Shown here: positions 2,757 to 7,264 of the stretch, one piece after another
Position numbering within the stretch: position 1 is the stretch's first letter
How the letters are laid out: every line of letters begins with the position of its first letter
DNA from: a virus
Strand: one strand, 5' to 3'
DNA length: 26,013 bases
IMG/VR virus record: IMGVR_UViG_3300044731_001018
Span: 1 to 26,013 of that record
Notes under the pieces: generated by a model
The model's input: only the letters and a program-made list of their open reading frames with translations
What the model was told of the DNA's origin: nothing
Databases searched by the model: none
Translations under genes and position numbers: made by a program

Positions 2757-3235
2757 GTGGTAGTGGCGCAGTATCAAGTGTTAAGAAAAAGGCTGAGTCT
2801 ACGGTAGGGAATTTTAAGGCAGGACTACTTAATCCTATTGGTGGAGCAGCTCAAGCCATTAAAGACGTTAAGAAGAAACCACTGACGGCAATTGGTAAAA
2901 CCCTTGTTCCTGTTGGTGGTGGGCAACAAATAGGTGAAGGTGCTACGAAGCTCGCCGTTACTGAAGCTCAAGAACAAGAAAATAAACAACGACAAGAAGC
3001 TGCTGCTGAATTAGCTAGCCAGACTAGTCAAGGAACTTCTGCAATTGCTAGTGCTAACGAAGTATCAAGAGTGTTAGCGTCTAACCCAAATGCCCAGGTA
3101 TCGGGAAGTGTAGCGGCGGGGGATGCTAGGTCAGGGCTGTTCTCATCTCTTATGGAAGGGATTGAAAAAAGAAGAGCACAGATACTTCAGTCTAAGAGAA
3201 CACCGGGTAGAAAAAGTACAATACTTACGAGGTAA
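2753..3235 (+). CDS. Unrecognised Gly/Ala-rich small protein between terL and portal
   Basis: The 160-residue product is not recognised. The start overlaps the terL stop as ATGA, indicating coupled translation. The N-terminal 70 residues mix glycine, alanine and lysine with small hydrophobic patches (FKAGLLNPIGGAAQAIKDV, IGKTLVPVGGGQQIGEG). Residues about 72-90 are a Q/E-rich helix, and the C-terminus is basic (EKRRAQILQSKRTPGRKS). There is no clear membrane segment or enzyme motif. The composition resembles small ejected or virion-associated phage proteins, and the site between terL and portal is a known place for such proteins in podoviruses, but no function can be assigned. Confidence 0.8.
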   Translation: MSGSGAVSSVKKKAESTVGNFKAGLLNPIGGAAQAIKDVKKKPLTAIGKTLVPVGGGQQIGEGATKLAVTEAQEQENKQRQEAAAELASQTSQGTSAIASANEVSRVLASNPNAQVSGSVAAGDARSGLFSSLMEGIEKRRAQILQSKRTPGRKSTILTR

Positions 3236-4997: not shown

Positions 4998-5273
4998 ATG
5001 GCGAAAAAAAGATCTACATCTAAAACAGACATACTGTCGTGTTACCAACGTGTTTTTAAAAGCGACGATGGTAAACGTGTCCTCGATGATTTAATCAAAC
5101 AATACTACTTGATGGTGCCAACTTTCGGTAGGGTGTGGAATACGGAGCTAATGATGGTCAGGGAAGGACAACGCTCCGTCATTCTTTCTATTTTACGGTC
5201 GACAAATATAGACGTTTCAAAATTAAGACATCGCATGGAACAAATAACCAAGGAAGAGGACATTTATGAATGA
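4998..5273 (+). CDS. Bbp19-like small structural-region protein
   Basis: This 91-residue protein lies between portal and scaffold and overlaps the scaffold gene by eight nt. The pattern FKSDDGKRVLDDLIKQYY ... EGQRSVILSIL resembles the Bbp19 family found at the same place in Bordetella BPP-1 and related podoviruses: a start segment with G-kRVL, then a conserved EGQR. The N-terminus is basic (AKKRSTSK). The family's role is not established; the constant location suggests a part in head assembly or connector maturation. The family call comes from remembered motif and synteny, not from a search. Confidence 0.75.
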   Translation: MAKKRSTSKTDILSCYQRVFKSDDGKRVLDDLIKQYYLMVPTFGRVWNTELMMVREGQRSVILSILRSTNIDVSKLRHRMEQITKEEDIYE

Positions 5274-6135
5274 AGTAGCAACGCCAACTAGTACACCAGC
5301 AGCTCCATCTAATTCTATACTATCTACAAATGTAGACCCTACTGGTGCTCCACCTGTAACCGCAGGAGAAAGAGTGCAGGTAATTGATGAGAAGAAAGCA
5401 TTTGATTGGCGCGACCATCTTGCAGATGACTTTAAGCAAGACCCTTCACTAAATGTTTTTAAAGACGTTAACGACCTAGCTAAGAGTTATGTCAGCACGA
5501 AGAAAATGATCGGCGCGGATAAAATTTCTCTCCCAGGAAAATATGCAACAGATGATGAATGGAAACAGGTTTTTCATAAACTAGGGTTACCAGATGACCC
5601 AAGTAAGTATGAACTAAAGCCTAAGGAAGGGGATGTTAACGATGAGCTATTCGCACGATTTAAGGAAACCGCCTATCAATCCGGTGTTCTTCCAAAGCAA
5701 GCGCAAAGTATATATGATTGGTTTCAGAAAAGTACGGAAGACATTCAAGCCAAAATTCAACTCGAAGAACAAAAACGAGTTGACCAAGGTCTCCAAGAAT
5801 TAAAAAAAGAATGGGGTGATAATTTTAAACTAGAATTAGACAAAGCGAAAGTGGCTATCAAACATTTTGGTGGTGAAGAAGGATTTTCTTACGTCGAAAC
5901 TTCAGGTCTTGGAAATGATGTTCAGTTTATCAAGCTAATGAGTAAGGTAGGAAATGTTCTATCAGAAGATACCTTTAAAGGAATAACCGAGTCTTTAGGT
6001 GGGATGACCCCAAGAGACATCGAGTCTAAGAGAGCAGCAATATTCTCTGACCCAGCTTACTTTGATAAGCAACATCCAGGGCACGATGCTCTAGTACAAG
6101 AGATGCTAAAATTAACTAAACTATCTATGGGGTAG
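5266..6135 (+). CDS. Capsid scaffolding (assembly) protein
   Basis: The 289-residue product sits directly upstream of the major capsid gene, the standard place for a scaffold. It opens with about 35 disordered T/P/A/S-rich residues. Next comes the motif WRDHLADDFKQDPSLNVFKD with DLAKSYVSTKKMIGADKISLPGK, then a predicted coiled coil around residues 150-200 (QAKIQLEEQKRVDQGLQELKKEW), and a helical C-terminus ending in KLTKLSMG. This order (disordered N-terminus, the W..LADD..DPSL..FK motif, long helices) is common in podovirus scaffolds, which direct shell curvature and then leave the procapsid. The ATG at 5266 follows GAGGA and overlaps the previous stop region. Confidence 0.9.
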   Translation: MNEVATPTSTPAAPSNSILSTNVDPTGAPPVTAGERVQVIDEKKAFDWRDHLADDFKQDPSLNVFKDVNDLAKSYVSTKKMIGADKISLPGKYATDDEWKQVFHKLGLPDDPSKYELKPKEGDVNDELFARFKETAYQSGVLPKQAQSIYDWFQKSTEDIQAKIQLEEQKRVDQGLQELKKEWGDNFKLELDKAKVAIKHFGGEEGFSYVETSGLGNDVQFIKLMSKVGNVLSEDTFKGITESLGGMTPRDIESKRAAIFSDPAYFDKQHPGHDALVQEMLKLTKLSMG

Positions 6136-6168
6136 TTGACATCGCAGTTGTTTTAGCTATTCTATAAT
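6136..6168 (+). promoter_or_regulatory. Candidate promoter for the capsid gene
   Basis: A perfect -35 box TTGACA (6136-6141) begins two bases after the scaffold stop codon. A -10 candidate TATTCT (6159-6164) lies at the ideal 17-bp spacing but matches only four of six positions, while a perfect TATAAT (6163-6168) lies at 21 bp, which is too far. Either could explain separate high-level transcription of the capsid gene. It is the only promoter-like sequence noticed inside the rightward late block. Confidence 0.5.
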
Positions 6169-6181
6169 CAAACTATTCAGG

Positions 6182-6290
6182 ACTATCTCCTCGGAGACCC
6201 TACAAGCAGAGTAGTTCATGGAAGACCCTGCTTAAGGATTATCTATCCGAAAAATTAATTGTTATTAACCTTTCAACTATTGGAGATAGT
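6182..6290 (+). promoter_or_regulatory. Structured capsid leader with anti-Shine-Dalgarno segment
   Basis: The 156-nt leader before the capsid ATG has a segment ACTATCTCC (6182-6190) perfectly complementary over nine bases to GGAGATAGT (6282-6290), which contains the capsid ribosome-binding site. The same segment can instead pair with the adjacent GGAGA (6193-6197), forming a tight local hairpin. Between them are AAGCAG/CTGCTT (6204-6209 with 6228-6233) and GGAT/ATCC (6237-6240 with 6246-6249 approximately). The two pairings of the anti-SD segment exclude each other, as expected of a translational switch. The complementarity is seen; regulation is inferred. Confidence 0.5.
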
Positions 6291-6291
6291 T

Positions 6292-7236
6292 ATGTCAAAT
6301 CAAATTGATGAAGCATTCGTTAAACAGTACAAAGACAATATTTTTCATTTGTCTCAACAAAAAGGTAGCCGCTTACGTGGTGCCGTTAGAAATGAAGTGC
6401 AAGTAGGGGAATCAGCTTTCTATGAAAGATTGGGAACTACTGCTGCCATTAAAAAAGTATCTCGTCACAGTGATACTCCAGTGATTGATACTCCTCATTC
6501 AAGACGAAGAGTTACACTAGAAGACTACGAAATATCTGATCTAATTGACGAACAAGATAAAGTACGTCTTCTTATCGACCCTTCTTCTGTTTACGTAGAG
6601 TCCTTTATGTGGGCTTTAGGTAGAGCTGCCGATAACGAAATCATCGAAAATGCTTTCGGTACAGCTTTTGCTGGTAAAGAAGGTGGATCATCTGTTGCTC
6701 TTGGTAACGCACAAAAATTAGCTTGCCATGACGGTACAGTTACTACTGGATCAAATCTTAACGTACAAACTCTTAGAGCAGCTAAACGCTATTTTGATGC
6801 TAACGAAGTTGATGAATCAATTCCTCGTTACATTGCTTGTAGTGCCGCAGCTATCGAGAGTTTACTCGGTGAGACTGAAGTTACTAGCTCTGACTTTAAT
6901 ACAGTTAAAGCGTTAGTGATGGGCGAAGTAAATACTTTTATGGGCTTTAAGTTTATCCGTTCTGAACAGTTGCTAGCTACTTCTGGTACTACTACTTACA
7001 ACATCGATACTGGTGCTGTTGGTTCTGGTACAGGTACTGCTCCTGCTGCTTCAAGACGTTTAATGGCTTGGGCACAAAACGGTCTATTGTTCGCTGTAGG
7101 TAAAGATATGAAAGCTAGAATTACTGAACGAGCTGATAAATCATACGCCACTCAAGCATATGCTTGTATGAGTATGGGTGCTGTTCGATTAGAAGAAGCT
7201 AAGTTTTTAGAAATTATTTGCGACGAAGCTGCTTAA
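6292..7236 (+). CDS. Major capsid protein
   Basis: The 314-residue product is the shell protein. The ATG at 6292 has GGAGATA just upstream; the frame could extend 11 codons to a TTG at 6259, but that covers the ribosome-binding site. The sequence has marks of podovirus capsid proteins of the HK97 fold: an N-terminal helix (VKQYKDNIFHLSQQKGSRL), the VGESAFYERLG region, then ISDLIDEQDKVRLLIDPSSVYVESFMWALGRAADNEII, a G/A-rich middle (FGTAFAGKEGG) and a C-terminal ITERADKSYATQAYACMSMGAVRLEE strand-helix segment. Gene order scaffold-capsid-decoration supports the call. Codons lean strongly to GCT, ACT, GTT and CGT, fitting very high expression. The gene has its own promoter-like sequence and long leader, and a hairpin follows it. 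Confidence 0.95.
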   Translation: MSNQIDEAFVKQYKDNIFHLSQQKGSRLRGAVRNEVQVGESAFYERLGTTAAIKKVSRHSDTPVIDTPHSRRRVTLEDYEISDLIDEQDKVRLLIDPSSVYVESFMWALGRAADNEIIENAFGTAFAGKEGGSSVALGNAQKLACHDGTVTTGSNLNVQTLRAAKRYFDANEVDESIPRYIACSAAAIESLLGETEVTSSDFNTVKALVMGEVNTFMGFKFIRSEQLLATSGTTTYNIDTGAVGSGTGTAPAASRRLMAWAQNGLLFAVGKDMKARITERADKSYATQAYACMSMGAVRLEEAKFLEIICDEAA

Positions 7237-7247
7237 TATTAATTAAC

Positions 7248-7264
7248 GGGGGCTTTGTGCCCCC
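7248..7264 (+). terminator. Hairpin after the capsid gene
   Basis: A six-base GC stem (GGGGGC / GCCCCC) with loop TTTGT lies 11 bases after the capsid stop and is followed by TATTATAGGAG, not a clean T-run. It could be a partial terminator that lowers transcription of downstream genes, or an RNA-stabilising hairpin protecting the 3' end of the capsid message. Confidence 0.5.

Follow-up and report, generated by a model that had tools for sequence, protein, structure and literature searches.

A conserved tandem-bulge RNA in the capsid leader of HTVC010P-related phages, a candidate translational switch

Introduction

Control of coat-gene translation by RNA structure is familiar from the RNA phages, and we know of no family-wide element of this kind in lytic double-stranded DNA phages. 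The candidate RNA Mu-gpT-DE is located upstream of the Mu-like major head gene, and the put RNA of phage HK022 is formed by two hairpins close to the promoter, with one put site on each early operon. In translational riboswitches and protein-bound translational operators, a structured 5′ leader allows mutually exclusive pairings, one state of which sequesters the Shine-Dalgarno (SD) region.

The RNA described here is located in the capsid gene leader of a viral sequence from IMG/VR (IMGVR_UViG_3300044731_001018; 26,013 nt, the whole stretch of DNA analyzed, hereafter the window). It resembles translational riboswitches and operators in the respects just given and differs from them in being a phage RNA without a known aptamer, with tandem identical bulges in two of its hairpins (P2 and P3), and tied to capsid genes. 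Like Mu-gpT-DE, it is a structured RNA candidate associated with a phage head-protein gene, but no Rfam model, among which we assume Mu-gpT-DE to be included, matched the window or 16 related loci. With put it has in common two promoter-near hairpins, a likeness of layout; it differs in that a second copy per record was not detected at E<0.01 and in its location at capsid leaders, save for one match at a scaffold gene start. Mu-gpT-DE is among the names given in PMC7657543.

Searches of the window, its leader, the 16 related loci, and the leader of a further relative (L093) against Rfam 15 gave nothing at or above the gathering threshold and only weak subthreshold matches. One of these was a partial similarity of L093 to the preQ1-II riboswitch (RF01054), weak and below threshold (20.8 bits, where the gathering score is 47; E=0.21). 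Literature searches of open-licence papers found no description of a tandem-bulge capsid-leader RNA. We take the element as a new family within a known general kind, the structured leader RNAs.

Results

By its capsid protein, the window comes from a podovirus related to pelagiphage HTVC010P, with 52 to 53% identity to the capsids of cultured HTVC010P-type pelagiphages. The scaffold-then-capsid gene order is also found in HTVC010P relatives. The leader between the scaffold stop (6135) and the capsid start (6292) is 156 nt long, and the conserved RNA element sits in it between the scaffold and major capsid genes, the location typical of the family. The features of the locus are the following.

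5266 to 6135, + strand, scaffold/capsid-assembly protein gene, the upstream neighbor (PHROG matches phrog_3742 and phrog_458)
6136 to 6141, + strand, predicted −35 box (TTGACA, sigma70-like promoter), immediately following the stop codon of the scaffold gene
6158 to 6163, + strand, predicted −10 box TATTCT, spacer of 16
6171 to 6178, + strand, P1 5′ strand AACUAUUC, 8 of 8 pairs with 6209 to 6216
6179 to 6201, + strand, P2 hairpin AGG-A[CUA]UCUC...GAGA-C-CCU (from motif and model), bulge CUA at 6183 to 6185, A6182 opposite C6198
6182 to 6190, + strand, ACTATCTCC, complement of the SD region, overlapping the P2 5′ strand, so that its pairing with the SD region excludes P2
6209 to 6216, + strand, P1 3′ strand GAGUAGUU, pairing with 6171 to 6178
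6220 to 6248, + strand, P3 hairpin, its 3′ strand carrying the bulge motif also seen in P2, GA-C-CC...GG-A[UUA]-UC (from motif and model), bulge UUA at 6239 to 6241
6282 to 6290, + strand, capsid Shine-Dalgarno region GGAGATAGT
6292 to 7236, + strand, major capsid protein gene, 314 aa, ATG at 6292 (phrog_3437 major head protein, E=1.9e-80)

Past the capsid gene, ahead of the one that follows it, the window also contains a strong hairpin (7248 to 7264, GGGGGC/loop/GCCCCC, −14.4 kcal/mol) without a T-run directly 3′, possibly a partial terminator or an mRNA stabilizer.

An earlier note on this DNA had proposed that nine bases of the leader pair perfectly with the capsid SD region, that the same bases can pair instead with an adjacent GGAGA, and that the two pairings form a translational switch. 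Both pairings are present. All nine pairs between 6182 to 6190 and 6282 to 6290 are Watson-Crick, and this helix dominates the computed ensemble with a probability of 0.95 to 1.0. In the alternative, TCTCC (6186 to 6190) pairs with GGAGA (6193 to 6197), and it is this local hairpin that is conserved: ACTATCTCC makes up the 5′ arm of P2, with its bulge region, within a conserved fold, P1-P2-P1′-P3, spanning positions 6171 to 6248. Folding of the 195-nt region from 6136 to 6330, as the note had suggested, gave a structure modestly more stable than those of shuffled sequences (z −1.4).

The leaders of relatives contain a recurrent motif, 5′-G-R-[YAR]-UC-3′ opposite 5′-GA-Y-C-3′, with a 3-nt bulge. 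Its orientation differs between the two hairpins, the loop lying beyond UC/GA in P2 and on the opposite side in P3. The window leader carries both P2 (5′-side bulge) and P3 (3′-side bulge), its bulges being the variants CUA and UUA, and a strict motif scan of the 26-kb window outside the leader returned one weaker match. P1 encloses P2 in many leaders. The base pair adjoining the bulge is nearly always G.U, A.C, or A-U in 28 leaders, the G.U and A.C pairs being alike in shape. A kink-turn was considered and rejected, as judged from the sequence, in that U-A and C-G pairs follow the bulge, not sheared G.A pairs. An additional copy of the P2-type hairpin lies ahead of P3 in two leaders (L136 and L157).

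Relatives were gathered by their capsid sequences and their leaders were then read. In 15 leaders, with the window excluded, 92% of the cells pair and 13 of the 22 pairs show changes in both partners. Covariation scored 0.472 there, compared to 0.276 for shuffles, and slid controls were far lower. Alignment of 28 leaders by the model gave 17 of 22 pairs double-changed, 143 double-changed cells versus 45 in shuffles, and a covariation score of 0.578 versus 0.266 (reached in 0 of 500 shuffles); this alignment was fitted to the structure, and the 15-leader test is the cleaner of the two. Every P1 pair changes on both sides in relatives (alignment A5). A covariance model built without the window (R1) has its best match in the window at 6167 to 6253 (E=2e-5, the next best position having E=0.4), a match recovered only with the filters off and missed under default filters; a second model, R2, scores 32.2 bits on the window (E=4.7e-6). 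Compensatory change therefore does uphold the local hairpin of the earlier note, within a larger fold that the note had not seen (P1, P2, P3, and the tandem bulge motif), and does not uphold the nine-base anti-SD helix. The latter is not conserved in position, the longest anti-SD matches falling at differing sites in different leaders, and among the capsid leaders of the family compensatory change does not keep one same SD-occluding helix.

Using a simple descriptor, P2 followed by P3 was found in 43 of 86 distinct capsid leaders; windows of equal length from elsewhere gave 0.6% and shuffled leaders 0.4%. Across 30 whole records searched, matches at E<0.01 never exceeded one per record. Context-free DNA patterns listed about 200 loci, and among these matches five reach E<0.01, all of them before phrog_3437-type capsid genes, two of the five contigs being already in the set. 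Among the single-hairpin context-free pattern matches listed from IMG/VR, most are due to chance, and they served as controls for the covariance model. A search of 446 bacterial genomes with R2 gave no match, a weak test in that few candidates were scored per genome.

The P2/P3 arrangement can be read by eye in the cultured Vibrio phages VP5, phiVC8, K300, and CKB-S2 and, as two P2-type hairpins, in Alteromonas phage ZP6. CKB-S2, K300, and ZP6 score weakly with the model, and these cultured Vibrio and Alteromonas phages are an extension of the family, not proof of it. In HTVC010P itself (L082, about 2362 to 2388), the P2 motif lies inside a small annotated gene, gp08, between the scaffold and capsid genes, so that coding and RNA constraints overlap there.

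A further occurrence concerns the scaffold gene. In the record of one phage (G003, the phage of leader L006), the match at E<0.01 falls on the start codon of the scaffold gene instead of in the capsid leader. Here, at about 2988 to 3016 and at the same site in L005, GAATCCCTACTCGGGGGCAATTC directly follows the scaffold ATG (ATGTCT). It encodes ESLLGGNS and can be read as a perfect P3 element; the DNA is kept in the two phages with differing flanks. The occurrence may mark another site under the same regulation or may be a coincidence, the latter because other scaffolds encode a similar SLLGG peptide by other codons.

The boxes at the start of the leader predict a transcript start at about 6170, one base ahead of P1. 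TTGACA-like and TATAAT-like boxes, scanned at a spacing of 15 to 19 nt, are present in 52 of the 86 leaders, the background frequencies being 4% in other windows and 6% in shuffles, and the first motif strand lies a median of 11 nt past the predicted start. Because promoter boxes stand upstream and the motif follows soon after the predicted start, the conserved RNA is probably the 5′ end of the capsid transcript. In the Vibrio phages VP5 and phiVC8 (L432/L433, about 1315 to 1360), the −10 region of the capsid promoter lies between the arms of a 13-base inverted repeat (TGTTCTCCCTATG ... CATAGGGAGAACA in VP5); the repeat is a possible operator or a possible hairpin at the transcript start.

The earlier note had put the chance of a perfect nine-base match at 1 in 1,000 to 2,000, which proved too strict. 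When a perfect match of at least nine bases was allowed anywhere between the window leader and the SD region, 1.5% of composition shuffles had one, and longer matches than nine bases are found in two other leaders among the 86. By itself, the match is weak and not decisive (about 1 to 2% by composition shuffles). The duplex energy between leader and SD is extreme for the window phage (z −5.05 in one analysis and −4.03 in another).

A family-wide view was obtained by hybridizing 70 representative leaders in silico to their own SD and to all other SD regions, with normalization to shuffles. Leaders pair more strongly with their own SD than with swapped ones (mean z −0.78 versus −0.10; permutation p=5e-5), also when the window is left out; in the controls, the spacer gave p=0.02 and the coding sequence from +10 to +33 showed no effect (p=0.69). 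As read from the duplexes, the strand that pairs with the SD comes in the family mostly from P3 (5′ arm or loop) and in the window from P2 (5′ strand).

In the window, formation of P2 precludes sequestration of the SD, and vice versa. For positions 6170 to 6300, the computed energy is −30.4 kcal/mol for the SD-closed state versus −20.8 kcal/mol for the conserved fold, and enforcing the latter raises the computed unpaired probability of the SD from 0.00 to 0.71, the largest change of the 36 leaders tested. Energies and accessibility thus predict for the window an alternative pairing in which the SD is occluded and the conserved fold cannot form. SD accessibility shifts little in many other leaders, several of the strongest family members included.

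Discussion

From the computed fold, covariation, capsid-gene link, promoter enrichment, and leader-SD complementarity we infer a regulatory role, with translation as the step, a direction for the switch, and a factor that acts on it. As modeled, the element is a structured capsid-leader RNA that probably serves as a translational switch or operator and sets the amount of capsid. To the more specific reading, a cis-acting conserved leader RNA whose translational switch is held or released by a factor in trans, we give slightly better than even credence. At the 5′ end of the capsid mRNA, P1 would enclose P2, with P3 next, and the RNA would govern capsid expression in cis. With 33 nt separating the end of P3 from the SD, the conserved fold would be expected to form first during transcription, and any effect on translation would be indirect. 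With the P2 5′ strand held within the conserved fold the SD would be open, and with that strand paired to the SD it would be closed. A trans-acting factor, most likely a phage protein recognizing the tandem bulges, would hold or release the fold, the opposite orientation of the P2 and P3 bulges being as might be expected for a paired recognition site.

Several observations go against such a switch. On naked thermodynamics, closure of the SD is favored in the window by about 10 kcal/mol, so that a factor or kinetic control would be needed for the conserved fold to persist, and the strand that meets the SD varies by phage (P2 here, mostly P3 elsewhere). In many leaders SD accessibility also shifts little, and the gap between P3 and the SD would leave an indirect effect on translation. 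Because the local hairpin covaries within the conserved fold and leader-SD complementarity is selective, the switch is plausible, if unproven; of the original proposal, selective complementarity to the SD stands for the family, mostly through P3, and the specific nine-base helix is not conserved there.

The SD pairing could also be coincidental to a conserved RNA that functions otherwise, as a tandem-bulge protein operator or as a stabilizer of the mRNA 5′ end independent of SD sequestration. The position of the element at the predicted transcript 5′ end, the lack of positional conservation of the exact anti-SD helix, and the absence of an SD effect in several of the strongest family members are all consistent with this, but the advantage of a leader's own SD over swapped SDs (p=5e-5), which is absent for coding sequence, argues for a link between leader and SD, and we regard coincidental pairing as unlikely while still a serious contender. 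That chance accounts for both the nine-base match and the local hairpin we consider very improbable. Shuffles with at least nine matching bases, at 1.5%, would lead one to expect about one such case in 86 leaders, and for the nine-base helix taken alone chance may be enough; for the hairpin it is rejected, since covariation and motif enrichment place it in a selected structure.

A put-like RNA acting on RNA polymerase, as in phage HK022, by which the host polymerase would read through a long structural operon, would fit the promoter-proximal position in most leaders and the paired-hairpin layout. The single copy per record and the SD complementarity, which such a function leaves unexplained, make it improbable. 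We grade a small-molecule riboswitch no higher: its conserved bulges in a compact fold would suit one, but no Rfam family matches, capsid production is no obvious target of metabolite control, and the sampled bacterial genomes, weak as that test is, gave no match. Riboswitches have been reported in other marine phages (PMC9004378).

To return to the switch held or released by a trans-acting factor, compensatory changes have preserved its fold across many relatives from marine and fresh waters. A tentative extension, which we think doubtful, is that the element may be an undescribed sensor RNA in phages of Pelagibacter, Vibrio, Alteromonas, and uncultured aquatic hosts, which would read a phage assembly protein through its two identical bulges and adjust capsid translation to keep capsid and scaffold in proportion. 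A conserved RNA located where the capsid transcript begins would be a compact handle on the timing and balance of capsid production, testable in cultured relatives such as the Vibrio phages VP5, phiVC8, and K300, in whose leaders the same motif can be read.
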